Shown piece after piece: positions 1 to 17,249 of a stretch of DNA of 64,000 bases (positions within the stretch are counted from its first letter, which is position 1; every line of letters starts with the position of its first letter). The translations under genes were made by a program, and so were the position numbers. Source of the stretch: Sphaerochaetaceae bacterium. GTDB lineage: Bacteria > Spirochaetota > Spirochaetia > Sphaerochaetales > Sphaerochaetaceae. The stretch is taken from contig JAQQAR010000027.1 in the NCBI GenBank assembly GCA_028532765.1, positions 1 through 64,000 of the forward strand. The letters run 5' to 3'. Below the pieces are notes generated by a model that did not search any database, was not told the DNA's origin, and saw only the letters and a program-made list of their open reading frames with translations.

Positions 1-1
1 C

Positions 2-766
2 TTGCTCTTCTTGATGGTTGGATGTTCGAAAACTCCAGTTGAATCCTCCCAGAATCCTGTGGAGGAAACTCCTTCGACAGTTGTGGTACAAGCTGAACCG
101 ATTGTTGAAGAGACGGATGTTATTCGGGATTTGGAAGAGCCTTCGACGCTGGAAGATCGATTCAGTTACACATATGGCTATCTTCTCTACTCCTCAATGG
201 TACAGCAGAAGGGTTTCAGTGACTTGGAAGCCTCCTATTTTGCAAAGGGAATCCTTGATGCTGATAGGTCTCAGGGGTTCTACACCCAGGAAGAGATGTC
301 CCAAACCCTCTATGAGGTGCAAACCAAACTCCTGCAGATTGCCCAAGAGGAGATGAACGCCATTTCAGCTGCCAATATGGAAGTTGCAGAGGACTTCCTG
401 GAGACCAACAGGCAAAGGGAGTCCGTGAAGGTGACCGATTCAGGACTGCAGTATGAAGTGCTTGTAGAAGGGGATGGGGACCGCCCTACAGAAGACAGCA
501 TTGTAGAAGTCGATTACCAGATTATGCTGTTGAACGGAAAAATCATTGACAGCTCCTATGAACGGGAACAGAGTTCCACCTTCCTGCTGGAAGCTATCAT
601 GGTTCCAGGGTTTATTGAAGGAGTTAAGTTGATGCAGGAAGGTGCAAAGTACCGTTTCTGGATACATCCCGATCTTGCCTATGGGAAGGAGGGGACGGAA
701 ACCATTGAACCAAATACCCTACTGATCATAGAAGTCGAACTCAAGTCAATCAGAGAGGGCCGTTAA
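2..766 (+). CDS. FKBP-type peptidyl-prolyl isomerase lipoprotein (5' truncated)
   Basis: The frame is open from the window edge and starts inside a lipoprotein signal peptide: LMVGC is a lipobox with the acylated Cys at residue 8, so the true start lies upstream. About 100 residues of mostly helical sequence follow, resembling the FKBP-type N-terminal dimerisation region of Mip/FkpA proteins. A C-terminal FKBP domain runs from about residue 140 to 252 (SGLQYEVLVEGDG, VPGFIEGVKLMQEGAKYRFWI, LAYGKEG). The family catalyses prolyl isomerisation and assists folding of exported proteins; here it is predicted to be membrane-anchored. It converges on the next gene with a 17-bp overlap of 3' ends. Confidence 0.85.
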   Translation: MLFLMVGCSKTPVESSQNPVEETPSTVVVQAEPIVEETDVIRDLEEPSTLEDRFSYTYGYLLYSSMVQQKGFSDLEASYFAKGILDADRSQGFYTQEEMSQTLYEVQTKLLQIAQEEMNAISAANMEVAEDFLETNRQRESVKVTDSGLQYEVLVEGDGDRPTEDSIVEVDYQIMLLNGKIIDSSYEREQSSTFLLEAIMVPGFIEGVKLMQEGAKYRFWIHPDLAYGKEGTETIEPNTLLIIEVELKSIREGR

Positions 767-1445
767 GGAACTCAAGCACAGAGGATAGGCTGCTGTGGGT
801 ATGTGTTGGTTGCACCTTGGGATTTGCGGGCTTCCCCTCTTTATTCAGCCAAAGTGTGTCCATGCCACTGGCTATGCCTCCGGCAATATCACTGGATAGG
901 CTGTCTCCGATCATGAGGGAGTGCTGTTTCTGTTCGGTAAGCCCGGTTACTTCAAACATATGTCCAAAAAAACGTGGATCTGGCTTTTGGTATCCTATCT
1001 CTTCGCTGATGAAGATATGATCGAAGTACTGCTCAGTATCTGATATGGCAATCCTGCCTCTTTGTACTTCAGCAATTCCGTTGGTTGCGAGGAAGAGGGT
1101 ATAGCCCCGCTTCTTCAGGGTCTCGAGTACGGTGATGGTCTCAGAAAACAAGATACCCTGCCTAGACAGTTCGTGCTGGTAGCTCTGACTTGCTTCTTCA
1201 GGATTGAGCGAGATGCCAATCTCCAATGCAAAATTTGCAAAGCGCTTCACTTTCAGTTCCTCGATTGTCACTTCGCCTTTCTCAAACTGTTTCCATACCT
1301 CAGCATTGCAGCGGATGTAGTCTTGCTCATGCTTCCTTTCCAGTGGCAGGTTAAGGCTTTTTGCCATCTTCCAGAATGCATTGTGTTCTGCTTGTTCGAA
1401 ATCAAAGAGTGTTCCATCTGCGTCAAAGAAAAGATACCGGTACAT
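750..1445 (-). CDS. yjjG: HAD-superfamily nucleotidase/phosphatase, YjjG-like
   Basis: The 231-residue protein has all HAD motifs: DADGTLFDF near the N-terminus (nucleophile and acid/base Asp pair), LFLATNG (motif II), the Lys in YQKPDPRFFGHM (motif III) and MIGDSLSSDIAGG (motif IV). The alpha-helical cap and overall length match the YjjG/YfnB group of pyrimidine 5'-nucleotidases, which dephosphorylate dUMP, dTMP and non-canonical pyrimidine nucleotides in the cytosol. It is transcribed alone. The exact substrate is inference, since HAD enzymes are promiscuous. Confidence 0.82.
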   Translation of the reverse strand: MYRYLFFDADGTLFDFEQAEHNAFWKMAKSLNLPLERKHEQDYIRCNAEVWKQFEKGEVTIEELKVKRFANFALEIGISLNPEEASQSYQHELSRQGILFSETITVLETLKKRGYTLFLATNGIAEVQRGRIAISDTEQYFDHIFISEEIGYQKPDPRFFGHMFEVTGLTEQKQHSLMIGDSLSSDIAGGIASGMDTLWLNKEGKPANPKVQPTHTHSSLSSVLEFLNGPL

Positions 1446-1534
1446 GTGTTGTCATCCTTTACTTAGGGTGTTCTAGCCAGTACGATAAAGAAAAACGGTC
1501 CAATTGTACAGGACCGGAAGGCAAGGAGCCAAAT

Positions 1535-2140
1535 ATGCAGGATACCTTTCTTAAACGTCACCTCATTCTTTCCACTGTGATTGGTGCGCTCTTGATCATC
1601 GTAGGGATTTTCTTGATGTTCCAACAGGAATCCTTCGTGAAGATTTTCATCTCCCTGTTAGGGGTGTTCCTTGCAGGATCGGGAATTTCCAGCCTGATTT
1701 ACTTGAAGGGATTCAACCTTGGGAGTCGCTCACGTATTGCTACCTTGGTTAAGGCTCTCTTGAGCATAGTAATCGGGTTGGTTGCCATTATCGTCCCTCT
1801 CTCTGCAGCAACCATTAGCTGGACAGTACTGTTGTACATCATCGGGGCACAGCTTTTGTTCTCTGCCCTGATTTCCTTCGTGGATGCATTGCTGAGGAGG
1901 AAAGAGGAACGCTCCCTCTCCCCGCTCTATAGCGAGGGTGTCTTCTCCCTGATCATGGCAATCCTCTTGTTTGTCTTCCCACAGCAGATCGGCAGCCTGT
2001 TGCTCAAGCTGTTCGGGTTGCTCTTCATAGTAAGCGGAATCGGCATGATTCTCTGGTCTCTGCGCATCCGCAAAATCAACCAACAGTTCAAGGAACAGGT
2101 GGTTGAGGCAGAGGCGGAGGTTATCGACCCAGAGAACTAA
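1535..2140 (+). CDS. DUF308 / HdeD-like six-helix membrane protein
   Basis: I place the start at the ATG at 1535 because AAGGAG lies at 1523-1528; upstream in-frame Mets read through the divergent gene's start region. The 201-residue product has six predicted membrane helices in three hairpin pairs (for example ILSTVIGALLIIVGIFLMF and LFGLLFIVSGIGMILWSL), the internally repeated arrangement of DUF308/HdeD proteins. HdeD in E. coli is linked to acid resistance; function here is unknown. The C-terminus is short, acidic and cytoplasmic. A 6-bp inverted repeat (CGGTCC 1496-1501 / GGACCG 1511-1516) sits just before the ribosome-binding site. Confidence 0.75.
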   Translation: MQDTFLKRHLILSTVIGALLIIVGIFLMFQQESFVKIFISLLGVFLAGSGISSLIYLKGFNLGSRSRIATLVKALLSIVIGLVAIIVPLSAATISWTVLLYIIGAQLLFSALISFVDALLRRKEERSLSPLYSEGVFSLIMAILLFVFPQQIGSLLLKLFGLLFIVSGIGMILWSLRIRKINQQFKEQVVEAEAEVIDPEN

Positions 2141-3852
2141 GGGATCAGGAAGGTAGCTGAGATTCCGTAGCGAGCGATGTTGTTTGCATCAGGAATCGAC
2201 TCACCTCCGATGGTTAGCATAGAGCTCTGCAATGGAAGGACTTTTCTGCTGTATACATAATCAATGCGTTCTTTCAGATTCTCGGTGACAAACGTATTTC
2301 CCGCATCGGTATCTGCAGAGAAATGGGTGGCTCTGTATACATCGTAGAATGATGACTCTTCCAGGAAATTCGATAGTGGCCAGATATAGTCAATCTGTCG
2401 ATAGGGTACCGGGCTGAAAGTATTCCAATCCTGGTACGAAGGCTCAAACAGACTGGCTCCTATGATGGTTGGCTCGTTCATTGTCCCTTCTGCCAAGATT
2501 TCTTTCAATATCTTGGTCCGTTCGCCGGTAACCTGTTTTTGTATGGGTTTCCAATCGTTTCCACTGGTGAATGCATCAAAGACCTTATATTCAGGAAGAT
2601 TGGCAATGGAAAGCCTGATTGTCTTCGTGTTGCTGAATTGGACACGTATGCCATGGTTTGTGGTTGAGACGACATTGAAGGAGGTGATGATCGCCCCTCC
2701 TTCAACCAATACGGCATTCCTTCGTGATTGTCTTACAAGATCAATGACATTCTGCATATGTCCTGTGACCATGATGATGGGGGCTTTTATGTCGCTGATG
2801 CTCGTTGCAACCAGATTTTTCATGGTGGGGTCGCTCCAGCGAATATCATCCAGGGGGAGCATCAAAACGTTCAGCGGATCGTTTTCGGCTGAAAGAATCG
2901 TAGTTTCATCTGTGGTGTACAATCTAGGCAGAGACAACTCCTCGAGAGGTGGAATCTGTTGATACTCAGCCTCCAGGGAAGCGAGACGCGCATTCTCAGC
3001 TTCTTCTGCTCTCCTCTGCTCCTCTACCTTCTCCCTCTGTTTTTCTAGTCGTTCTTCCTCGATTCGCTTTGCTTCCTCGATGCGTTGTTGTTCAAGACGA
3101 AGCCTCTCTTCCAGCGTCTGGGTTTTCTCCTCTAATTGAGCTGTAAGGAGTTCGTTGTCTGTCTTTAGGGAATCTATGATGTTTTGCAGCTCCAGCAATC
3201 TCTGTTCCTGGGCTGCCTTCAGAGATTCAATTTCAGAGACATGTTCCAACTCTGCCTCATGCATGATGGTTTGTAGCTCGTTGTTGATGCTCTGTTGCTC
3301 TGAGAGAAGGTTTTCTAGTTCGTTTGCTTGGTAGCTAAGCATTTCGTAGTCTTGCTCGTTCTCCTCAATCTCTTTGTTCAATGCCTCAATCTCAGCTTGC
3401 AGGGCAGTAATGGTGGTCTGGTACTCTTCGGCCTCTTGAGAGAGAGTCAGATCCTTGTTGTCCAACAAGAGATTGCGTTCTTCCAATGATTCTTTCAATG
3501 ACTGGGTATTGTTCTTTTCTTCAGCGAGTGCATCCTCGCTCTCTTGCAGTCTTTTCTCCAATGTACTTTTCTCTGTCTGGAGGGAGGCAATGGACTCCTG
3601 CATGGCTTCATAACGTTGCCTCTCTTCTGCTTCCGCTTGTCTCTCCTGCTCGGCAAGGAGTGCCGCTTCCTCTGCTTCTGCTCTTGCTTGTACTTCGGCT
3701 TCCACAAGAGAATATTTGGTAACGAGCTCTCCCTCTTCTACGGGGGTTGGGGCTTGTATGCTCTCTTTTGCGGAGCGGGCAGTATAGGTCTCACATCCCA
3801 TGAGAATGGTGAGTAGTAGTGCAATCGCTATTAGTACAATACGTCTGTTCAT
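2137..3852 (-). CDS. Coiled-coil lipoprotein with C-terminal globular domain, unknown function
   Basis: The start is taken at the ATG at 3852 because it opens a lipoprotein signal peptide (MNRRIVLIAIALLLTILMGC); the upstream extension lacks such a signal. The 571-residue product is then a long Glu/Gln/Ala-rich coiled coil from about residue 45 to 300, followed by a globular domain of about 240 residues. The latter ends with an ERIDYVYSRK segment and a short final strand, reminiscent of the end of endonuclease/exonuclease/phosphatase folds, but the usual catalytic Asn/Asp/His residues are not evident. This resemblance is tentative. The gene is last in a HIT - Cys-rich - lipoprotein run on the minus strand. 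Confidence 0.7.
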   Translation of the reverse strand: MNRRIVLIAIALLLTILMGCETYTARSAKESIQAPTPVEEGELVTKYSLVEAEVQARAEAEEAALLAEQERQAEAEERQRYEAMQESIASLQTEKSTLEKRLQESEDALAEEKNNTQSLKESLEERNLLLDNKDLTLSQEAEEYQTTITALQAEIEALNKEIEENEQDYEMLSYQANELENLLSEQQSINNELQTIMHEAELEHVSEIESLKAAQEQRLLELQNIIDSLKTDNELLTAQLEEKTQTLEERLRLEQQRIEEAKRIEEERLEKQREKVEEQRRAEEAENARLASLEAEYQQIPPLEELSLPRLYTTDETTILSAENDPLNVLMLPLDDIRWSDPTMKNLVATSISDIKAPIIMVTGHMQNVIDLVRQSRRNAVLVEGGAIITSFNVVSTTNHGIRVQFSNTKTIRLSIANLPEYKVFDAFTSGNDWKPIQKQVTGERTKILKEILAEGTMNEPTIIGASLFEPSYQDWNTFSPVPYRQIDYIWPLSNFLEESSFYDVYRATHFSADTDAGNTFVTENLKERIDYVYSRKVLPLQSSMLTIGGESIPDANNIARYGISATFLIP

Positions 3853-3868
3853 AGGTATTATTGGTTCC

Positions 3869-4150
3869 TTAGAAGTTGAAGAGTGCTTCGGCTCTCGCCT
3901 TGGCACGTGCTTTTTTCTCAGATTCCTCTTTGGAATCCTCACCGAGCATGAAGGAGTCGCAGAAGTTTGCATTCTCCTTATCCTCTATATACTCCTCGAC
4001 TCCTTCAAGGCAGTCGTGGTAGACCCCTGGACTGTAGAACCTGCAATTTACACAGCTGTGCAAGCTTTTTGAACAGGTTGGACATACGGTATGGTAGCCA
4101 ATACTGAGCAATGGGTCGATGGGAGTATGGCAGTGATGACATGCACGCAT
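3869..4150 (-). CDS. Small Cys-rich, probably zinc-binding protein
   Basis: The 93-residue protein has successive CxxC-like pairs (ACHHC, VCPTC, SCVNC), then HDC and NFC, as in tandem zinc ribbons, and ends in a charged Lys/Ala helix. It starts 2 bp from the end of the HIT gene upstream and its stop lies 16 bp before the lipoprotein start, so the three are probably co-transcribed. I do not recognise a named family. Metal binding is inferred from the Cys spacing only. Confidence 0.62.
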   Translation of the reverse strand: MRACHHCHTPIDPLLSIGYHTVCPTCSKSLHSCVNCRFYSPGVYHDCLEGVEEYIEDKENANFCDSFMLGEDSKEESEKKARAKARAEALFNF

Positions 4151-4152
4151 GG

Positions 4153-4554
4153 TTAAAACTCCAATTTCTTTCCATAATCGGCAATCTCGCCATCGCTGTA
4201 GGGCTCTTTGACGAGACGCAAGGTCTTTCCATCCTCTTTGTACCTAGGGATGATATGAAGATGCAGATGTGGTACTTCCTGCCCGCTTTCCTTGCCGTTA
4301 TTGATGATCAGATTGGTGGCATCACAACCTAGGTTTTCTCTGAGCACGCTGTCAGCCTTCTTGGCTAGCACCATCATATGGCTCAAGACTTCTTCTGGAC
4401 AGCTTTCAAGGGTAGGGTATGGTTGTGACGTGATAATCAACAAATGGCCCTTGTTGACTGGATTGATATCGAGAATGGAGAAACAAAGTTCGTCCTTATG
4501 TAAAAATATGGAGGGAATCTCCCCGTTTAAAATCTTGGTGAAAATCGTTTCCAT
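4153..4554 (-). CDS. HIT-family nucleotide hydrolase
   Basis: The start chosen is the ATG at 4554 (METIFTKILNGEIPS), the canonical HIT-protein beginning; a longer frame to 4629 has no support. The catalytic histidine triad HLHLH is at residues 96-100, and LIINNGKESGQEVPH precedes it as in HINT/FHIT proteins. At 133 residues it has the usual Hint length. Family members hydrolyse nucleoside phosphoramidates or adenylated substrates in the cytosol. It heads a three-gene minus-strand unit and diverges from fusA. Confidence 0.9.
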   Translation of the reverse strand: METIFTKILNGEIPSIFLHKDELCFSILDINPVNKGHLLIITSQPYPTLESCPEEVLSHMMVLAKKADSVLRENLGCDATNLIINNGKESGQEVPHLHLHIIPRYKEDGKTLRLVKEPYSDGEIADYGKKLEF

Positions 4555-4639
4555 GGCATACCTCTGAGCTATTGTAACACACAAGTGTCGAGTCGGAAAA
4601 GGATTGTATTGGGAAAAGGGATTGCACAAAAAACCGAGA

Positions 4640-4806
4640 TATACTATTATCCACGAGGTACGTTGGGGTAAGCATGTCCCGCGACCGTTCGTTCTCTTCC
4701 CTTCAGTTGGTAACCTGATGTGTGCTAGGGAGTAAGAGTTTTACATCAGGATGTTGGAATTCTGCAGGGGAATCTGTGGACTCGTTTTTATTCTATACTA
4801 TAGAGG
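4640..4806 (+). promoter_or_regulatory. fusA upstream region: two -10-like boxes, short leader reading frame, hairpin
   Basis: The 261-bp gap between the HIT gene and fusA contains two TATACT boxes (4640-4645 and 4794-4799). The second would start RNA about 10 nt before the fusA ATG, with AGAGG at 4802-4806 as the ribosome-binding site. Between them, ATG at 4674 opens a 14-codon frame (MSRDRSFSSLQLVT) that stops at 4718, inside the left arm of an inverted repeat (CCTGATGT 4714-4721 / ACATCAGG 4743-4750). No good -35 box is seen for either -10. The leader-peptide idea is speculative. Confidence 0.35.
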
Positions 4807-4815
4807 TTATAAAGA

Positions 4816-6924
4816 ATGGCTGACTTGCAAAATTTGAGGAATATCGGAATCAGTGCCCACATTGACTCGGGTAAGACAACACTATCCGAACGCATCCTCT
4901 ACTACTGCAATAAGATCCACGAAATACATGAAGTTCGTGGTAAGGATGGCGTTGGAGCTACCATGGATAGCATGGAGCTTGAACGTGAAAGAGGTATCAC
5001 CATTGCCTCCGCTGCAACAAACGTTACCTGGAAAGGGACAGAAATCAACGTTATCGACACACCGGGACACGTTGACTTCACCATTGAGGTAGAGCGTTCA
5101 TTGCGTGTATTGGATGGCGCTGTCTTGGTCCTTTGTTCCGTTGGTGGCGTACAGAGCCAGTCCATCACCGTAGACCGGCAGATGAAGCGTTACCACGTTC
5201 CTCGTATTGCTTTTGTCAACAAGTGTGACCGTACCGGTGCAAACCCGTATCGCGTCAAGAACCAATTGATCGAGAAGCTTGGTCTGAATGCTGTATTGAT
5301 GCAGATCCCCATCGGTCTGGAGGACAAGATGGAAGGTGTTGTTGACTTGATCAGCATGAAGGCTCTCTACTTCGATGACGGTCCCAATCAGGATGCCGTT
5401 CGTGAAGCTGAGATTCCCGCCCACCTGAGGGAAGAGGCTGATGCACGTCGTGAAGAGTTGCTTGATGGTGTATCCATGTGCTCAGATGAGCTTATGGAAG
5501 CCATGCTCGAAGACACCGTAACAGAGGAAATCATCCGCAAGGCTGTCAGAAAAGCTACCATCAACTTGGAGCTCTGCCCCGTATTCATGGGCAGTGCATA
5601 CAAGAACAAGGGCATCCAGCCCTTGCTTGATGGTGTAGTAAGCTACCTTCCCAATCCTACTGATGTCACCAACAAGGCTCTTGACCTCGACAATAATGAG
5701 GAAGAGGTCAAGCTGGTTGCAGATGAGGACCTTCCTCCTGTTGTCCTGGCATTCAAGCTTGAGGATGGACAGTATGGTCAGCTGACCTATATCCGCGTCT
5801 ATCAGGGTAAGGTGAAAAAGGGTGATGAACTCTACAATACCCGCAGCCGCAAGAAGTTCCGTGTTGGACGCTTGATCCGTATGCACGCATCTACCATGGA
5901 AGATTTGACAGAGGCAGGCTGTGGTGAAATTGCAGCACTCTTTGGTATTGACTGTGCCAGTGGTGATACCTTCTGTGATCCGAAGCTGAACTACTCACTC
6001 TCCAGTATGTTTGTTCCCAACCCGGTTATCTCCTTGGCAATCAAGCCAGTGGACAAGAAGGCTGCGGACAACATGGGCAAGGCACTCAACCGCTTTACCA
6101 AGGAAGACCCAACCTTCCGCAGTTATGTGGATCCTGAGTCCAACCAGACGATCATCCAGGGCATGGGTGAGTTGCACCTTGAGGTCTATGTAGAACGCAT
6201 GAAGCGTGAGTACAAGGCAGAGGTGGAAATCGGTCAGCCTGAGGTTGCCTATCGAGAAGCTATCACCCAGAGAGCCGACTTCAACTATACCCACAAGAAG
6301 CAGACTGGTGGTTCCGGTCAGTACGCACGTGTTGCTGGATATATCGAGCCACTTCCAGATCCTGAAGAGGGTGAGGAAGTTAAAGAGTACGAATTTGTTG
6401 ACGAGATCAAGGGTGGATCCATTCCTACTGAATACATTCCATCCTGTGATAAGGGATTCCAGATGGCCATCAAGAAGGGTGCTCAGCTTGGCTTCCCTGT
6501 ACTTGGTGTGAAGGCTGTTATCAACGATGGTGCATGGCACCCGGTTGACTCATCCGACCAGGCTTTCCAGACTGCAGCTCTCAGTGCATTCCGTGAAGCG
6601 TTCGAGAAGGCAAAACCGGTCATCCTCGAGCCGATCATGAAGGTCGAGGTGGTTGCGCCCAACGAATTCCAGGGTTCTGTATTCGCTTCGGTAAACCAGA
6701 GACGTGGTCTGATCATCAGCTCCACCGAGGATAATGCAATGAGTACTGTTATTGCTGAAGTACCTCTCTCTGAAATGTTCGGATATTCCACGGTTCTTCG
6801 TTCCCTCACCCAGGGTAAGGGAGAATTTACCATGGAAATCGGGAAGTACGGCAAGGTGCCGGTAAGCGTTTCCGAGCAGTTGAAGAAGGATTACCAGGAG
6901 AAGCGGAAGAAAGAACAGAAATAG
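4816..6924 (+). CDS. fusA: Elongation factor G, spdEFG1 type
   Basis: This is a 702-residue translational GTPase with G1 AHIDSGKTT (14-22), RGITI (G2, 59-63), DTPGH (81-85) and NKCD (135-138), followed by EF-G domains II-V and the usual [13 protein letters not shown] end. It catalyses GTP-driven translocation of tRNA and mRNA on the ribosome. Ser in AHIDSGKTT and the [11 protein letters not shown] insert (41-51) are characteristic of spdEFG1, the bacterial relative of mitochondrial EF-G1. In that clade recycling is done by a second EF-G (spdEFG2), not seen here. It stands alone, with a terminator-like hairpin downstream. Confidence 0.95.
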
Positions 6925-6962
6925 TATTTCTTCCTGCAATCCCAAGCCCTCCATGAGGATAA

Positions 6963-6985
6963 ACCCTCCTGGGGGGTCTCTTTTT
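6963..6985 (+). terminator. Probable fusA terminator
   Basis: ACCCT (6963-6967) can pair with GGGGT (6973-6977) around a 5-nt loop, including one G-T pair, and CTCTTTTT follows. The stem is short, so this is a modest candidate. Confidence 0.42.
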
Positions 6986-7069
6986 GCCCTTTTCTGTAAA
7001 AAAGTACCATTTTGTGATTTTCCATAGTATACTAGGGATGAACCTAAAAATTACTTGGAGGTGAGCGCT

Positions 7070-7777
7070 ATGGTAATTCAAGAGTTAAACGAACTGAGTC
7101 CTCTTCGCGTATTTGAGCAGTCTTTGGACGGTGGACTTGGTCGTGGGAACCTCGGGGTCCTTGTTTCCCGTCACGGTGTTGGCAAGACAGCCTGCTTGGT
7201 CCATCTTGCTACTGATAAGCTACTGAGAGGGGAGCATGTCATTCATGTCTCGTTCTCTGGAAATGTAGAACATGTCATCAACTGGTATAAGGAAGTATTC
7301 AGGGAAGTCTCTGATGGCCGTACCCTTGATGATGCAGCGACCGTGTACAACAATATTCTCAGTAACCGTGTGGTCATGAATTTCAGCCAGGAGAATGTCA
7401 CCATTGATAAGGTGCTTTCCAGTCTGGAAACCTTGATCAACCATGGGAGTTTCAAGGCAGACGCCATTCTCTTCGACGGATACAAGCTAACCGTTGCAAC
7501 TGAGGATGATGTTCGTAAGATCAAGCAGTTTGCACAGAATATGAATCTGGAGGTATGGTTCAGTGTATCTCCTGTTCGCTCTGATGTTATGTATGACAAA
7601 TATGGTGTCCCAAACACCATGCACAAATATATCGATTTGATTGATGTCCTTATTGGCCTTATTTACAATGAGGAACGAGACAAAGTGGTAATGACGGCCG
7701 TGAAGGCCCACGAGGGGGAATACGAGAAGCCTATGGGCGTAAGTCTCGACCCCAAGACCATGCTCATTTCCAAGTAG
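7070..7777 (+). CDS. Small P-loop ATPase-like protein, RecA/KaiC-like fold
   Basis: The start at 7070 follows a strong GGAGGTG at 7057-7063. The 235-residue protein has a Walker A (RHGVGKTACLV, near residue 35), a Walker-B-like strand ending in Asp (DAILFDGYK) and alternating strands and helices, like a compact RecA/KaiC-type domain. I cannot name a family or function. It is monocistronic, with a TATACT box at 7028-7033 and a good terminator after the stop. Nucleotide binding is inferred from the motif. Confidence 0.72.
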   Translation: MVIQELNELSPLRVFEQSLDGGLGRGNLGVLVSRHGVGKTACLVHLATDKLLRGEHVIHVSFSGNVEHVINWYKEVFREVSDGRTLDDAATVYNNILSNRVVMNFSQENVTIDKVLSSLETLINHGSFKADAILFDGYKLTVATEDDVRKIKQFAQNMNLEVWFSVSPVRSDVMYDKYGVPNTMHKYIDLIDVLIGLIYNEERDKVVMTAVKAHEGEYEKPMGVSLDPKTMLISK

Positions 7778-7785
7778 TGTTCAGA

Positions 7786-7812
7786 AGAAGGCCGCGTTTG
7801 CGGTCTTCTTTT
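7786..7812 (+). terminator. Rho-independent terminator
   Basis: A 10-bp stem (7786-7795 with 7800-7809, one G-T pair, loop GTTT) is followed by TTT. It ends the P-loop gene. Confidence 0.72.
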
Positions 7813-7829
7813 CAAACAATCGATACAGG

Positions 7830-7853
7830 AGACCGGCTTGAGGAGGCCGGTCT
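7830..7853 (-). terminator. Hairpin after the DUF4867 gene
   Basis: AGACCGGC (7830-7837) pairs with GCCGGTCT (7846-7853) just beyond the stop codon of the minus-strand gene. There is no long T-run on that strand, so termination is uncertain. Confidence 0.35.
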
Positions 7854-7856
7854 TCA

Positions 7857-8567
7857 TCATGATACAGGAATAACCCTGCGGTTCGGGCCTCTCAGCCCAG
7901 CATGAACCCCTTGTCTGATGAGTTTCTCTCGTTCTGGATGGGCAATAAGCCACTTGTTGTTGTTGATGAGCAGTCTTGATTCAGGATCGTTTGATCGCTT
8001 GAGCACTGCCTTCATCTTCTCTTCAAGTGGTTCATTGGTTCCTCTGGGAAGCACAATGATGGATTTGAATCCATCATTTGACACGGCACAGGGGGCAAAG
8101 TGGAGAACATTGGCATCAACAATGGTCACCGATCCCTTGGGGAAATAGAAGAGTTCTGCCTTTGTAGTATCGACTGAATCATAATCCTGCATTGCAGAGA
8201 AGGGGGTGAGAAACTGTAGGCAGTCAGTTACTGCAATGAACAATTCTGGACTCTTGTGATACTCCATTCCGTTTATACGCTGGTTCTTTCCATTACAGTA
8301 CCCGATCTGGATGTCCTGGCCACCATAATAGAGTTTGAGCTTCTCCATGAGAGAGGTTTCTTCCAATGCTGGAAGGTATGTCTCATATGTGGTGTCTTGT
8401 TCTGGAATAGTGGTCACACGATCTGCTAGTGAAACCAACTCGGTAGCATCAAAGTCATGGAGAATCCGACCGTATTCCTTGAATCGGGAAGACTCTATTG
8501 AATGAATTTTCTCATTTGGATTGTTTCTTACAAGGTCCAACGGAACGTGAAACTGGGATGTTTTCAT
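7857..8567 (-). CDS. DUF4867 family protein
   Basis: The start is the ATG at 8567, preceded by GAGGTAA; an in-frame ATG five codons earlier would place this site inside the gene. The 236-residue protein matches what I know of DUF4867: an N-terminal alpha/beta part, then a cupin-like section (GYCNGKNQRINGMEYHKSPELFIAVTD, cited here as residues spanning roughly 90-120) with GSVTIVDANVLHFAPCAV. Members often sit in sugar-utilisation loci and have no assigned reaction. It is divergent from the permease/sulfoquinovosidase operon, now separated from it by an insertion sequence. Confidence 0.72.
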   Translation of the reverse strand: MKTSQFHVPLDLVRNNPNEKIHSIESSRFKEYGRILHDFDATELVSLADRVTTIPEQDTTYETYLPALEETSLMEKLKLYYGGQDIQIGYCNGKNQRINGMEYHKSPELFIAVTDCLQFLTPFSAMQDYDSVDTTKAELFYFPKGSVTIVDANVLHFAPCAVSNDGFKSIIVLPRGTNEPLEEKMKAVLKRSNDPESRLLINNNKWLIAHPEREKLIRQGVHAGLRGPNRRVIPVS

Positions 8568-8593
8568 AGTATTACCTCGCAAATAGTAGCATC

Positions 8594-8621
8594 ACTATAC
8601 CAGTAGCCAGCAACATGGAAA
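8594..8621 (-). promoter_or_regulatory. Promoter of the DUF4867 gene
   Basis: On the minus strand TTTCCA, a 16-bp spacer and an extended -10 (TGGTATAGT, TATAGT at 8594-8599) lie about 27 bp before the start codon. This promoter lies outside the insertion sequence and looks intact. Confidence 0.5.
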
Positions 8622-8627
8622 AGACAA

Positions 8628-8638
8628 TTAAGGAAAAA
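8628..8638 (+). repeat. Left flanking direct repeat of the insertion sequence
   Basis: TTAAGGAAAAA occurs here and again at 9838-9848, on either side of the element. It is compatible with a target-site duplication, although it lies 7 bp and 10 bp outside the 16-bp terminal repeats and IS1595-family duplications are usually 8 bp. Confidence 0.55.
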
Positions 8639-8645
8639 ACGTTAC

Positions 8646-8661
8646 TTGCACAGTGTTGATA
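8646..8661 (+). repeat. Left terminal inverted repeat
   Basis: TTGCACAGTGTTGATA, a perfect inverted match of 9812-9827. Confidence 0.85.
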
Positions 8662-8738
8662 GGAATCCGCGATATAGTGCATGAATTGCGGTTTTACCCC
8701 CTGTATCTATGCAAAATACGGCAGTCCACTGCCATGTT

Positions 8739-9638
8739 CTAGAACTTTTCTACCTTCTCGTGCTTGTCCTTGGGGTGGTTCATGACAAAGCAGAATAGGT
8801 TCAGATAGTCCTGTAGGTCATCCCTGATGAATCCTGAGTGGGAGGCAAGGAAGAGTTTCAGCATCCTGCAGTATTGATTGATCCTGTTCAGCGGATTCTC
8901 GGAATCAGGCAACTGCTTGATCTGTCTCGAATCATACACGATGCTCCTGAGCCTGAGAGCTTCTACCAAAGGCCCGTGTGCTTGTTCCATGTCATGCCTC
9001 ATGGTAGATTCCGGCTTGATGTGAGATGCAAATGTGTCCAGTGTTCCCTGCTTGGTTGGTTTTCCCTCTCCTTCCACAAAGCAGATGACGTTGCTTTGGT
9101 CGCAGGCAATACCGATACAGATCTGGTTGCGGGACAATACCCGGTACTCTTTGCCATCGTCACTTCTCTTTATGTCGGAATTCCGAACCTTGTAGAAGGT
9201 CTCATCAAGCTCAACCTCACCTGACAGTACCAGAGTACCTTGGTATTCCCTCAATACCAGGAAGACCTTTTCCATCCAGTATCTTGTAGTTGTATAGGCA
9301 TTTCGGTTGCTCTTTGATGTCAGGCTGAAGCTGCCGTACCCAAATATGGAGAGCAAGAAGTCGAGCCATTCGGTAAGCGGTAGCTTATGGGAATCGAAGA
9401 TTGTGTTGGTCAAGGCATTGAAAGTCCGCCCGCAATCCTTGCACCTGAACCTGCGAACCCCGTTGGGGGTAAAGCCAAATCTCTGGATGGCGGGGCTTCT
9501 GCAGTGCCTGCATTCCTGTACCTCCAGCGAGTTGAGTAGCTCAACCTCGCCGGTATCAGAGATGGCGGGATGCTTCCAGTGATAATTGTCCTGATTGCTC
9601 TCATCGATAAATGCTTGAAGCGCTGTGGCTTCAGGCAT
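8739..9638 (-). CDS. IS1595-family (ISXO2-like DDE) transposase
   Basis: A zinc-finger region (CRHC ... CKDCGRTF) precedes the DDE catalytic domain, with VELDETF supplying the first Asp and later acidic positions around RHDMEQAHGPLVEAL. This fits the ISXO2-like domain of IS1595-type elements. The start is uncertain: the longest frame begins at 9902, outside the element, so it cannot be native. The ATG at 9638 gives 299 residues and a GTG at 9731 a longer form. The C-terminus runs to VEKF without interruption, so the gene looks intact and the element possibly active. Confidence 0.8.
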   Translation of the reverse strand: MPEATALQAFIDESNQDNYHWKHPAISDTGEVELLNSLEVQECRHCRSPAIQRFGFTPNGVRRFRCKDCGRTFNALTNTIFDSHKLPLTEWLDFLLSIFGYGSFSLTSKSNRNAYTTTRYWMEKVFLVLREYQGTLVLSGEVELDETFYKVRNSDIKRSDDGKEYRVLSRNQICIGIACDQSNVICFVEGEGKPTKQGTLDTFASHIKPESTMRHDMEQAHGPLVEALRLRSIVYDSRQIKQLPDSENPLNRINQYCRMLKLFLASHSGFIRDDLQDYLNLFCFVMNHPKDKHEKVEKF

Positions 9639-9683
9639 ATCGGACCAGGGGGCTTCCTCCTGGATTTCGATCTGATTTTCTTC

Positions 9684-9733
9684 ATGTGGTAGTCCTTTGC
9701 AAGAAGACAGAGGCCAGATAGGGACTACCACAT
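9684..9733 (-). other. 12-bp inverted repeat near the transposase 5' end
   Basis: ATGTGGTAGTCC (9684-9695) and GGACTACCACAT (9722-9733) are perfect inverted repeats with a 26-bp spacer. In minus-strand RNA the stem would cover an AAAGGA motif and an ATG at 9685, like foldback structures that block read-in translation of transposases such as IS10. Confidence 0.5.
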
Positions 9734-9811
9734 CGCAACTATCCAGCCAGCTGTCTTCACAAATTACAGCCACAGTATATGTCTTTGCTTTCCCCTGTTT
9801 CAATGGGGATT

Positions 9812-9827
9812 TATCAACACTGTGCAA
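9812..9827 (-). repeat. Right terminal inverted repeat
   Basis: TATCAACACTGTGCAA, a perfect inverted match of 8646-8661. Confidence 0.85.
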
Positions 9828-9837
9828 ATACGGATTT

Positions 9838-9848
9838 TTAAGGAAAAA
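9838..9848 (+). repeat. Right flanking direct repeat, containing the permease ribosome-binding site
   Basis: TTAAGGAAAAA repeats 8628-8638. Its AAGGA serves as the ribosome-binding site of the following permease and its last A is the first base of that gene's ATG. Confidence 0.55.
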
Positions 9849-10753
9849 TGACGAGCATGATGCAAGCAGTTGGTACACGAAACCGATGGATTTGGAGTGC
9901 AAGAATACTATTTTTGCTTCCCGTTTCGCTACTTTTCTTTTTCTTCTTTATTTATCCCTTCTTCTTTACGGTCTTTACCAGCTTCACCAGTTGGCGGGGT
10001 ATCGGGTCGATGGAGTTCAATGGAGTAAAGAATTATACCAAGTTGATAGCGGACCCTACCTTTCAGAAAGCACTAGGAAACAATATCGTCTGGGCTCTCT
10101 CACAAGGCTTGATCCAGGTTCCTCTTTCATGTTTGGTCGCCATGATTCTGGTACGTAAGCCATTTGGTTGGAGAGGGCTGAGAACTATCTACTACCTTCC
10201 TAATGTTATCTCTACCGTTGCCTTGGCAATGGTCTGGGTTGCTATCTACAACGTCGATGGACCCTTGAATGCAATTCTTGCCAGCCTTTTTGGGATGGAA
10301 AAGTATAACTGGTTGGGAAATCCTGATACTGCCCAGTTCTCCGTGATCTTCCAGACAGTCATCTATATCGGTTACTTCATGATCGTCCTGTTGGCTTCAG
10401 CGATGAATATCCCCAGATCGCTCTATGAAGCAGCAGAGATCGATGGAGCGAGTACCTTGGCCCAGGAGATCAATATCACCCTGCCCATGATCCGTGGTAC
10501 CCTGATCACCACCATGACCCTCGCCATGGCGTATGGGATGCGTCACTTTGAAGCGACCTTCCTGATGACCGGTGGGGGACCAGCGTATGCAACCACCACC
10601 ATGGGCATCGACCTGTACCTGAAAATGGATGCCTTGCGCTATAGTGAGGCCTCGACCAGCGGGGTGTTCCTCATCATCATGGGAACATTGGTCATTACCT
10701 TACTACGGAAACTCTTTGGTTCCTCGGACCCTATGAGTGAAATGGCACAATAG
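9848..10753 (+). CDS. Sugar ABC transporter permease, MalF/UgpA type
   Basis: The 301-residue protein has six predicted membrane helices, the first starting near ILFLLPVSLL, and the cytoplasmic EAA loop (EAAEIDGASTLAQEINITLP) that docks the ATPase. It is one half of a CUT1-family carbohydrate importer. ATG at 9848 lies 3 nt after AAGGA; ATGs at 9857 and 9860 are alternatives. The insertion sequence ends about 20 bp upstream, so the native promoter is now 1.2 kb away. No binding protein or ATPase gene accompanies it here. The next two genes suggest a sulfoquinovosyl-glycoside substrate. Confidence 0.9.
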   Translation: MTSMMQAVGTRNRWIWSARILFLLPVSLLFFFFFIYPFFFTVFTSFTSWRGIGSMEFNGVKNYTKLIADPTFQKALGNNIVWALSQGLIQVPLSCLVAMILVRKPFGWRGLRTIYYLPNVISTVALAMVWVAIYNVDGPLNAILASLFGMEKYNWLGNPDTAQFSVIFQTVIYIGYFMIVLLASAMNIPRSLYEAAEIDGASTLAQEINITLPMIRGTLITTMTLAMAYGMRHFEATFLMTGGGPAYATTTMGIDLYLKMDALRYSEASTSGVFLIIMGTLVITLLRKLFGSSDPMSEMAQ

Positions 10754-10767
10754 GAGCATATATCCAG

Positions 10768-11604
10768 ATGAAACATACCCCTGCATCAATCTTCGGCAAC
10801 ACCCTCAAATGGATTCTCCTGATTAGCTTGCTCGCTTTGGCATTGCTTCCCTTGCTCTGGCTGCTGATCAGCTCACTGAGAACCAATCTTGAACTGCAAA
10901 CCAATCCGTTTGGATGGCCACAGAAGTTCCAATGGGTCAACTACGCCAACGCATTATCCATGGCAAGTCTTCCTCGCTTACTGCTCAATTCAGTGGTTGT
11001 AGCAGTCGTTACCGTGGTGCTGAACAGCCTGGTAACCAGCATGGGAGCATTCATCCTCTCCAGGGAACATTTCAAGGGAAGGGACATCATCTATACCATT
11101 CTCACCGCCGGAGTCTTGGTACCGGTGATTTCTTTCATGGTTCCCTATTTCTCCATGATCACCCGTAGCGGTCTCTACAACACCCTGCTTGCCTTGATAC
11201 TTGTCTATACTGCAGTGAATATTCCTGTTTCCATATTCTTGGTGACGGCATTCATGAAATCCATCCCCAAGGAGTTGGAGGAGGCTGCCATCATGGACGG
11301 GTGCGGCTTCTTCAAGCGTTTCTCCATGATTATCCTTCCTCTCTCCCGCTCTGGGATCGTAACGGCAGCAACATTCTGTTTCATCTACTCATGGAATGAA
11401 TTCGTTATGGCGATGCTGCTGACCAGCTCCATAGAGTCTAGGACCATACAGCTCGGGATCAAGTTTTTCTCCAGCCAGTTCATTACCGATTACAGCAGCA
11501 TGTATGCAGCGGTCATTATCACGATCATTCCCAGCATCCTTGGGTATGTGTTCCTACATGACAAGATCATTGGTGGATTGACTACAGGTGGAGTGAAGGG
11601 GTAG
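10768..11604 (+). CDS. Sugar ABC transporter permease, MalG/UgpE type
   Basis: This 278-residue partner permease has six membrane helices and the EAA motif (EEAAIMDGCGFFKRFSMIILP). It follows the first permease by 14 bp and is followed after 2 bp by the GH31 gene, a clear operon. MalF/MalG-type pairs form the channel of CUT1 importers, with a separate binding protein and a shared or dedicated MalK-type ATPase that must be encoded elsewhere. Confidence 0.9.
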   Translation: MKHTPASIFGNTLKWILLISLLALALLPLLWLLISSLRTNLELQTNPFGWPQKFQWVNYANALSMASLPRLLLNSVVVAVVTVVLNSLVTSMGAFILSREHFKGRDIIYTILTAGVLVPVISFMVPYFSMITRSGLYNTLLALILVYTAVNIPVSIFLVTAFMKSIPKELEEAAIMDGCGFFKRFSMIILPLSRSGIVTAATFCFIYSWNEFVMAMLLTSSIESRTIQLGIKFFSSQFITDYSSMYAAVIITIIPSILGYVFLHDKIIGGLTTGGVKG

Positions 11605-11606
11605 GC

Positions 11607-13634
11607 ATGTTCAGTCATACAAATCAGGATGGAATCCTCTCGGTTTTCTTTAACCAGATGAAAATCCTTGAACATACGGCAGAGCATCCTGTCTTGATGC
11701 TCCAAAGAAACAACGCAACGATTGACATGTACCGAGGCAACTACTTCATCGATGATACTGTTGAGGAAACACTGGTATTGGATGTCTGTACCATCAGTGA
11801 AGCCTACATTGAGGGCAGGGGTGTGTGTATCCTCCATTTTTCCGGGGGATTGTATCACCTGACTTGTGAGCTCAGTGAACAGGATGGTCGACTGATCATG
11901 CGCTTTTCCCCACTTCCACAGCCATATAACCGGCTGGTCCTGCACCTCTTTGCAGAAGAGAGGGAGCACATCTGGGGATGTGGTGAACAGTTCTCATATT
12001 TTGATCTCCGTGGACGAAACTATCCGCTGTGGACCCAAGAGCAGGGAGTTGGAAGAAACAAGCATACGCACATCACCCAGATTGCTGATGAGAGAGATAG
12101 GGCAGGGGGTGATTTCTACACCACGTTCTATCCCCAGACTACCTTTGTCTCAAGCAGGGGGTATTTCCTTCACGCAAACACCGACGGCTATGCTGATTAC
12201 GATTTCTCCCAAGATCATGTTCATCGGTTGTTGTTCTGGGAGGTTCCCTCTTCCCTGGTAATCTCGGTAAAACCATCGCTATTGGAAGTTGTTCAGGATA
12301 TCTCATCCCTATTGGGTCGCCAGCCCTTGCTCCCTGACTGGGTCTATGATGGCATTATATTGGGAATTCAGGGAGGGACGAAGGTACTCCTGGATAAGCT
12401 GTCGTCAATGGAGGCTTTCTCCACACCGATAAATGGTATCTGGATCCAGGATTGGCAAGGAGAGAAATATACAAGTTTCGGAAAGCGCCTTTGCTGGAAC
12501 TGGCAGTGGGACAAGGAACTCTACCCTGGTTTGGACGCTGTGATCGATTCATTGAAACAACGGGGGATAGGAGTACTTGGTTACATCAACCCATATGTAC
12601 TCAAGGACTACCCGTTGTTCACAGAAGCTGCAGGGAAAGGGTATCTTGGCAGAAACAGACTGGGAGAACCCTACTTGGTGGATTTCGGTGAGTTCGATGC
12701 TGGAGTTGTTGATTTCACCAACCCTGAAGCAGTCCAGTGGTATGAGAAGGTCATACAAGACGAGATGATCAGTCTTGGCTTGCGTGGTTGGATGGCTGAC
12801 TTTGGAGAGTATCTCCCCCATGGTATCATGCTTCACAATGGACGGTCGGCACTCCTGGAGCATAATCCTTGGCCAGGGTACTGGGCACAGGTGAATAAGC
12901 AAGCAATTGCCAAGGCAGGGAAAAGCAATGAGATTCTCTATTTCATGCGTTCTGGTTCTGCCCTGAGCTTATTATCCTGTCCCATGATGTGGGCGGGTGA
13001 CCAGAATGTGGACTGGAGTGAGGATGATGGTCTTCCCTCAGCTTTGTGTGCAGCGCTATCCCTATCCATGAGTGGAATGGGATTGCATCATAGTGATATT
13101 GGTGGGTATACCACACTCTATGGGATGAAACGGAGCAAGGAGTTGCTGCTTAGGTGGTGTGAGTTTGCTGCCTTTACCCCACTGATGAGAACCCATGAAG
13201 GTAATCGACCAGCGGAAAACTGGCAGTTTGACTCCGACGAGGAAACCATCCAGTTCTTTGCGCGGATGACCAGGCTTCATGTTGCGTTGAAACCCTATCT
13301 CAAGGAGGTCGTGAGGGAGAATACTGAACAGGGTATTCCTGTTATGCGGCCTCTTTTCCTACACTATCCAGAGGAAGCCTTCTTTAACAACAAGGATTCT
13401 TATCTTCTTGGCAGGGATCTGTTGGTTGCTCCGGTATTGAAAGAGGGAGAGGATAGCAGGAAGCTGGTACTCCCCTCTGGGAGGTGGGTCCACCTCTTCA
13501 CCAAGGAACGTTTCCAAGGGGGGAGTTGCTGTGTAGATGCCCCCCTTGGGATGCCTCCAGTCTTTTTTCGCGAAGAGAGTGCTTTTGCTTCACTTTTCCA
13601 TTCGATTAGTACAGGAACGGTACCACTTCCTTGA
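11607..13634 (+). CDS. yihQ: GH31 sulfoquinovosidase (YihQ-like alpha-glycosidase)
   Basis: The 675-residue GH31 enzyme has the nucleophile Asp398 in WMADFGEYLP and acid/base Asp465 in AGDQNVDW. With a constant offset of 7 from E. coli YihQ, the sulfonate-recognition residues also align: Gln255, Gln281 (IWIQDW), Arg294 and Trp297 (TSFGKRLCW), and Tyr501 (DIGGYTTLYG). YihQ releases sulfoquinovose from sulfolipid-derived glycosides, so that reaction is predicted here, probably cytoplasmic since no signal peptide is seen. It is co-transcribed with two sugar permeases, like the transporter/glycosidase pair of smo clusters. No sulfoglycolytic enzyme is in the window. Its 3' end overlaps the next gene by 29 bp. 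Confidence 0.85.
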   Translation: MFSHTNQDGILSVFFNQMKILEHTAEHPVLMLQRNNATIDMYRGNYFIDDTVEETLVLDVCTISEAYIEGRGVCILHFSGGLYHLTCELSEQDGRLIMRFSPLPQPYNRLVLHLFAEEREHIWGCGEQFSYFDLRGRNYPLWTQEQGVGRNKHTHITQIADERDRAGGDFYTTFYPQTTFVSSRGYFLHANTDGYADYDFSQDHVHRLLFWEVPSSLVISVKPSLLEVVQDISSLLGRQPLLPDWVYDGIILGIQGGTKVLLDKLSSMEAFSTPINGIWIQDWQGEKYTSFGKRLCWNWQWDKELYPGLDAVIDSLKQRGIGVLGYINPYVLKDYPLFTEAAGKGYLGRNRLGEPYLVDFGEFDAGVVDFTNPEAVQWYEKVIQDEMISLGLRGWMADFGEYLPHGIMLHNGRSALLEHNPWPGYWAQVNKQAIAKAGKSNEILYFMRSGSALSLLSCPMMWAGDQNVDWSEDDGLPSALCAALSLSMSGMGLHHSDIGGYTTLYGMKRSKELLLRWCEFAAFTPLMRTHEGNRPAENWQFDSDEETIQFFARMTRLHVALKPYLKEVVRENTEQGIPVMRPLFLHYPEEAFFNNKDSYLLGRDLLVAPVLKEGEDSRKLVLPSGRWVHLFTKERFQGGSCCVDAPLGMPPVFFREESAFASLFHSISTGTVPLP

Positions 13635-16349: not shown

Positions 16350-17249
16350 TTTGATGATACGTCTCATCGGAACAAACCCCTCACCCAGTGCCTGGTAGGT
16401 CTCATGTACGAACATGAATGCCTTTGGGTCCTCTTCGTGTACAATCTGTGTCAGGTGGTTGATCTGTTGGTTGTGAACCACAGCCAGGAGGAGCTTCCTC
16501 TCCTTCTGCGTAAAGACCCCAACACCGTTGATCAGGGTTCCTCCATGTCTCAGCTCTGTGATGATGCGCTTTCCTATTGCCTCGTGCCGATCACTGACGA
16601 TATAGGCGGTTTTTGCGTATTTGGTTCCAAGGTTCATCACCATGAAATTCACCATCTGTCCTGAGATGTAGAGTGTGATGATTGCAAAGAGAGCACGCTC
16701 CAATCCAAAGACAAGTGCACCCACAATAATGATAAGCCCATCACAGAGGAAGAGCGCTGTTCCCAGTGCAAGCGGAGTGTAGCGGCTGATGATCTGGGCG
16801 AGGATATCAGTACCTCCGGTGTTTGCACCAGAGCGCATTACAACGCCAATACCACTTCCAAGCAAGACTCCTCCGAAGATAGCTGAGAGGAGCGTATCCA
16901 TCCTATCCACGTAGGGTAATACCCCGTCATAATTGGTGAGTTGTCCCATGAGGCTGACCCAAAGACTAAGCAGTATCGTTCCTGCCAGGCTCTTTGCTCC
17001 ATAGAGACGGCCAAAGATTCTCAGCCCTATGAAAAAGAGGGGAAGACTGATCAGGAGCATGACCAATCCTGTATCAAAACCGGTTACATGGTAGAGGATG
17101 GTTGCAATGCCGTTTACCCCTCCACTGGCAATTCTTGCAGGGGTTATGAATAAGGCAATTGCTGCTCCTGCCGCTGCTGTTCCCAAGACAAGATAGAGCG
17201 CCTCGATAATGAGGCGCCCGGTGTGTGAGTGCTGCATATCAGCATCCAT
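16308..17249 (-). CDS. YitT-family membrane protein (DUF161 + DUF2179)
   Basis: The 313-residue protein has six or so membrane helices (DUF161; GVNGIATILYHVTGFDTG and GSGIGVVMRSGANTGGTDILA) and a soluble C-terminal DUF2179 domain (GGTLINGVGVFTQKERKLLLAVV). YitT proteins are widespread and have no proven substrate. Its start lies one base after the uxuB stop, so it probably rides on the hexuronate operon, which is an unusual partner. Confidence 0.88.
   Translation of the reverse strand: MDADMQHSHTGRLIIEALYLVLGTAAAGAAIALFITPARIASGGVNGIATILYHVTGFDTGLVMLLISLPLFFIGLRIFGRLYGAKSLAGTILLSLWVSLMGQLTNYDGVLPYVDRMDTLLSAIFGGVLLGSGIGVVMRSGANTGGTDILAQIISRYTPLALGTALFLCDGLIIIVGALVFGLERALFAIITLYISGQMVNFMVMNLGTKYAKTAYIVSDRHEAIGKRIITELRHGGTLINGVGVFTQKERKLLLAVVHNQQINHLTQIVHEEDPKAFMFVHETYQALGEGFVPMRRIIKSEKQRSKQDRPKG

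Follow-up and report, generated by a model that had tools for sequence, protein, structure and literature searches.

A recent loss of the sulfo-TK pathway has very probably left, in the Sphaerochaeta species studied here, an intact but orphaned sulfoquinovosidase (SQase) gene, yihQ, with two permease genes and sqvB beside it, as a decaying remnant. The window, by which we mean the whole stretch of 64,000 nucleotides that was analysed, comes from a 93-contig draft genome (G000). The kind of enzyme and the ancestral pathway were already known for this group of organisms; what is new is the deletion scar, the removal of the pathway in the window species and the likely survival of the gateway enzyme, YihQ, as a relic.

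Identity of the enzyme

The open reading frame at 11607-13634 begins with ATG and encodes 675 amino acids with no internal stop. Among solved structures, phmmer placed E. coli YihQ first (5aed/5oht, E = 9.4e-238), with the SQase 8r56 also among the best; only GH31 SQases follow YihQ before the E-value falls by about 150 orders of magnitude to other GH31 enzymes. With the curated YihQ equivalog model PRK10426 the protein reaches 914.8 bits (cut-off 553); it is 53% identical to E. coli YihQ, and its closest named match in the genome-collection search is from Sphaerochaeta halotolerans (84% for the yihQ protein). When the AlphaFold model (pLDDT 87.6, pTM 0.90) was used for a fold search of the PDB, ranks 1-23 were all SQase chains (TM 0.92-0.96), with other GH31 structures at a TM of about 0.7.

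The preliminary description had proposed that seven key residues are found at a constant offset of 7 from E. coli YihQ, and alignment with the E. coli protein bears this out: Gln255, Gln281, Arg294, Trp297, Asp398, Asp465 and Tyr501 all match at YihQ numbering minus 7, and none of the seven varies across an alignment of 28 related sequences. Asp398 and Asp465 are the GH31 catalytic pair, presumably acting as nucleophile and acid/base, and the remainder correspond to Gln262, Gln288, Arg301, Trp304 and Tyr508 of YihQ, which we take to be the sulfonate-pocket set. Arg294 and Trp297 are not shifted from the aligned pocket. Two other GH31 proteins of the window genome, used as controls, keep the Asp pair and lack the Gln/Trp/Tyr set, which shows that the match goes beyond what GH31 enzymes have in common. 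As judged by its sequence, residue set, family model and predicted fold, the gene encodes a genuine YihQ-family alpha-sulfoquinovosidase, an enzyme that frees the sugar of plant sulfolipid, and the SQase identity originally proposed for it stands.

Other Sphaerochaeta have a second YihQ-like paralogue, 36-40% identical (L117:8389-10602, L118:8712-10718, L119:8578-11469, L120:9083-11101, L121:9146-11143). In these sequences Gln replaces the sulfonate Arg301, and Phe replaces Tyr508 in two of the five; they are probably not sulfoquinovosidases. Gln is also found at the Arg301 position in the YihQ-like proteins of two loci from other spirochaete families (L122:6967-8964 and L123:927-2927), which lie beside DUF4867 and sulfo-TK-type genes.

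What remains at the locus

The features of the window from sqvB to yihQ are as follows.

7857-8567, minus strand: SqvB/SftX (DUF4867), putative SQ mutarotase (Pfam PF16161, E = 3.3e-66; listed open reading frame 7857-8582)
8572-8635, minus strand: 3' remnant of sqwE (TauE-like exporter), aligning to the 3' end of sqwE in the related genome G012
8636-9837, unstranded: IS1595-type element of 1202 bp with terminal inverted repeats (NCBIfam IS1595 transposase, 76.2 bits, cut-off 75)
8739-9902, minus strand: called transposase open reading frame; the TTG start is located beyond the right end of the element, and the true start is downstream
9838-9858, unstranded: second target-site copy, scrap of sqwE and deletion joint (CAT microhomology at about 9856-9858)
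9860-10753, plus strand: MalF-type ABC permease, its native upstream region deleted
10768-11604, plus strand: MalG-type ABC permease
11607-13634, plus strand: yihQ, GH31 sulfoquinovosidase, intact in the window strain and frameshifted in a second genome of the same species (G041)

Four genes of the operon thus remain: sqvB, malF, malG and yihQ. The preliminary description had reported MalF/MalG-type permeases with no binding protein, ATPase or sulfoglycolytic enzyme; this is correct, but it overlooked the nearby sqvB, which survives at the left edge of the deleted operon. The DUF4867 protein has been named SqvB (PMC9594981) and also, as a sulfoglycolysis-associated protein, SftX (PMC13219744).

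The IS1595-type element sits in the tail of sqwE and is flanked by an 8-bp target duplication, TTAAGGAA, at 8628-8635 (where the sqwE remnant ends) and 9838-9845. It occurs once in the window assembly, and more copies are found in G012 and G014; the copy in G012 shares the ends of the window copy and is flanked by an 8-bp duplication of its own, and for the copy in G014 no duplication is clear. Positions 1-8638 of the window align to the related genomes G018 and G012 as far as the inside of the 3' end of sqwE, and the alignment to both resumes at 9856 with the start codon of malF; the two end points are about 8.2 kb apart in each. A short piece of sqwE lies past the element's right end and runs into the start of malF at a CAT common to both. 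The deletion of about 8.2 kb begins within sqwE and reaches the malF start codon; it accounts for the missing binding protein and, with the insertion, for the odd layout. Judged from the anatomy of the locus, insertion most likely came first and deletion second, and the deletion was most likely formed by an illegitimate joint beside the element and not by way of the element's own ends. The joint created an in-frame ATG at 9848 ahead of malF, and an AAGGA sequence precedes the in-frame start. A search for an outward promoter from the element gave only chance-level consensus matches upstream and none on the plus strand near malF.

Left of the scar (3540-8638) G012 is the genome nearest to the window (about 98%), and right of it G018 is (95.5%). 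This switch in similarity suggests that these species have recombined in the region of the locus.

A binding-protein-dependent sugar importer of the CUT1 type would need two permeases, a binding protein and an ATPase. A MalK-type ATPase (OB_MalK domain) gives one strong match per genome in all four genomes tested (C9:21747 in G000), with a weaker second match in G041, and the complete operons of the closest relatives also lack an ATPase. The absence of an ATPase gene is therefore normal, a MalK-type ATPase shared among transporters being the usual state in these genomes, and only the binding protein has truly been lost. The window species thus has the permeases and the shared ATPase, and its cognate binding protein is deleted.

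The complete operon in relatives

Downstream of yihQ, gene content is the same in the window and its five closest relatives (L104-L108). Upstream of malF, these relatives have genes for a binding protein, a 438-aa fucose-isomerase-like protein and a ROK regulator; reading divergently from these are genes for a split transketolase, an RpiB-type isomerase and an iron alcohol dehydrogenase. The G012 stretch could be extended beyond this point, and there the next genes encode a TauE-like exporter and the DUF4867 protein. At the same syntenic position, all five thus carry an operon for the binding protein, SqvD, the ROK regulator, SqwG/H, SqwI, SqwF and SqwE. The best model for the isomerase (SqvD) is SftI, which it matches below the cut-off (201 versus 700 bits), and SqwE was assigned by position and appearance only; the other proteins match SBP_bac, ROK, Transketolase_N, Transket_pyr with Transketolase_C, LacAB_rpiB and Fe-ADH.

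The sulfo-TK families and gene order lie beside YihQ in the close relatives (L104-L108 and L126), in agreement with the layout of SqvB, SqvD, SqwGH, SqwI, SqwF and SqwE published for this pathway (PMC9594981, PMC12890257, PMC13219744); our assignment is by families and gene order. Comparable gene sets occur near yihQ in other Sphaerochaeta loci, in some other spirochaetes and in some Clostridium-like genomes, and sulfo-TK is already known in Spirochaetes and part of the Sphaerochaetaceae (PMC12890257, PMC13219744). A model of the SQ isomerase finds an orthologue in all 16 other genomes of the genus that carry this particular yihQ (in G010 it is split into two pieces). The reverse of the window is seen in G015, a Sphaerochaeta with only broken yihQ fragments and yet with sqwG/H-like genes (C81:35946-36270, C10:6312-8063).

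Search for the pathway elsewhere in the genome

The DNA of the deleted segment has no match in G000. With a combined protein query, G000 and G041 gave nothing closer than distant paralogues (best E about 1e-63 and 9e-71), and the relatives gave near-identical matches. A second query, made up of the binding protein, SqvD, SqwE, Bacillus SftI and SftT and E. coli YihS (YihV and YihT were left out), gave in G000 and G041 only paralogues of 23-30% identity, most of which are also present in G018. The SQ isomerase model likewise found only distant paralogues in these two genomes and no orthologue. Neither genome has orthologues of SqvD, SqwGH, SqwI, SqwF, SqwE or the binding protein, all of which the same searches find in the relatives. 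SqvD is common to sulfo-TK, sulfo-TAL and sulfo-EMP2 (PMC9594981), so its absence speaks against all three, and the absence of YihS speaks against sulfo-EMP. These four pathways define the scope of the search.

The distant paralogues in G000 include an isomerase on contig C56 (26% identical to SqvD) and one on C62 (30% identical to Bacillus SftI). The former lies in a cluster (L138:9974-15396) of a fucose-isomerase-like gene, a split transketolase, an FGGY kinase and a transaldolase-like gene, by a DeoR regulator and a GH3 gene, which we take to resemble a branched-pentose (apiose-like) pathway; the latter has a fucose-aldolase-like gene as its neighbour. As both neighbourhoods resemble other sugar clusters, we rejected these hits as parts of an SQ pathway.

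The same scar in a second genome

G041, an independently assembled single-contig genome of the same species, has a target duplication and a deletion joint identical to those of the window. Its yihQ is broken: a 1-bp change in length near codon 69 leads to an early stop, and a further 42 bp are missing downstream of the frameshift. Both malF and malG are open. Within the 24 kb aligned, length differences between G041 and the window occur at a few sites at about 2.7 and 3.8 kb, in the element, in yihQ and in a YitT-like gene, which is uninterrupted in the window and has an insertion of about 1.8 kb in G041 (window 16714-16729 compared with L134). Because the other genes compared, from EF-G to NagB, have no indels between the two genomes, random sequencing error is an unlikely source of the yihQ lesion.

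Codon counts on the species branch of yihQ (9 non-synonymous, 27 synonymous) give no clear sign of relaxation. That branch may, however, be mostly older than the deletion.

Discussion

We suggest the following history. The ancestor would have had a cytosolic SQase and a binding-protein-dependent MalFG importer, powered by the shared MalK-type ATPase, that brought in sulfoquinovosyl glycerol. YihQ would have released sulfoquinovose (SQ), which SqvB/SqvD, SqwGH, SqwI and SqwF would have converted to two xylulose-5-phosphate and isethionate, the latter being exported by SqwE. In the window species an IS1595-type element inserted in the tail of sqwE, and a deletion at the CAT microhomology, most likely later, removed the rest of sqwE, sqwF, sqwI, sqwH, sqwG, the ROK regulator, sqvD and the binding protein. 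The remnant of sqvB, malF, malG and yihQ would no longer support SQ import, or SQ catabolism by any route tested, and would be decaying. The yihQ of the window is thus probably a leftover. In this history the data show the enzyme family, the synteny, the deletion with its joint, the lack of orthologues and the yihQ lesion of G041; the substrate and flux in the relatives, the sequence of events and the present lack of use are inferred.

The preliminary description had instead pictured an organism that takes up SQ glycosides, hydrolyses them and completes SQ breakdown with sulfoglycolytic enzymes encoded elsewhere in the genome. Its account of the enzyme has held; the genome-wide completion of the pathway is not supported, since pathway orthologues are absent from G000 and G041 and found in the relatives. 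An intact YihQ with every SQase residue is what a working pathway would need, and the genome does have distant SqvD-like and transaldolase-like paralogues, one with a split transketolase beside it. However, the same paralogues are present in G018 alongside a true sqvD/sqw operon, their contexts look like other sugar pathways, and orthologues of the binding protein, SqvD, SqwE and YihS are all lacking; we regard this explanation as very unlikely. For a 93-contig draft it might also be proposed that the junction is an artefact and that the assembly merely failed to include the sulfo-TK genes, particularly as mobile elements often cause misjoins. The element is however single-copy and internal to its contig, and in the single-contig G041 the duplication and the joint recur and the genes are again absent. 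We reject this explanation, which has next to no chance of being correct.

Against the loss of function that we favour stands the state of the surviving genes. In the window strain yihQ, malF and malG are intact, selection on yihQ is not clearly relaxed, and another binding protein could serve the permeases. The shortened operon might accordingly still do part of its job: with a borrowed binding protein and the shared ATPase, and with malF read from the in-frame start behind AAGGA, YihQ would split sulfoquinovosyl glycerol, the glycerol would be used and the SQ wasted or shared. Yet the native upstream region and the binding protein are gone, the promoter matches upstream are at chance level with none on the plus strand close to malF, and yihQ is broken in the sister strain, and so we consider a partly working operon very unlikely. 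That a former SQ degrader has turned SQ releaser, with MalFG, a borrowed binding protein and YihQ scavenging glycerol and passing SQ to its neighbours, appears to us decidedly unlikely.

Environmental surveys use yihQ as a marker gene for SQ degraders (PMC13219744). The presence of yihQ alone does not prove an SQ-degrading organism; in the window species the marker has outlived the pathway. The locus also offers a pair of closely related spirochaete lineages, of which one has kept the sulfo-TK operon and the other has not, a useful setting for testing operon function.

Comparison with known systems

The window protein most resembles E. coli YihQ (5aed, 5aee, 5aeg, 5oht), with which it shares the named pocket and catalytic residues at 53% identity and a TM of 0.95. 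The SQases BmSQase (8r56), E. rectale (6pnr) and A. tumefaciens (5ohs/5ohy/7ofx) have the same family and fold and are further from it (44-49% identity). E. coli YihQ feeds sulfo-EMP, whereas the ancestral partner of the window yihQ was in all likelihood sulfo-TK, now deleted. The operon of the relatives (split transketolase, RpiB-type isomerase, Fe-ADH, FucI-like isomerase, exporter, DUF4867 and YihQ) matches in its components the sulfo-TK systems of Clostridium sp. MSTE9 and Sphaerochaetaceae (PMC12890257, PMC13219744); compared with these, the window species keeps only sqvB, the two permeases and yihQ. Truncated yih cassettes of E. coli (PMC12608037) are likewise sulfoglycolytic cassettes that have been shortened in some strains. 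Those cassettes lose the SQase and keep yihTUVW, whereas in the window the SQase has been kept and the catabolic core lost.
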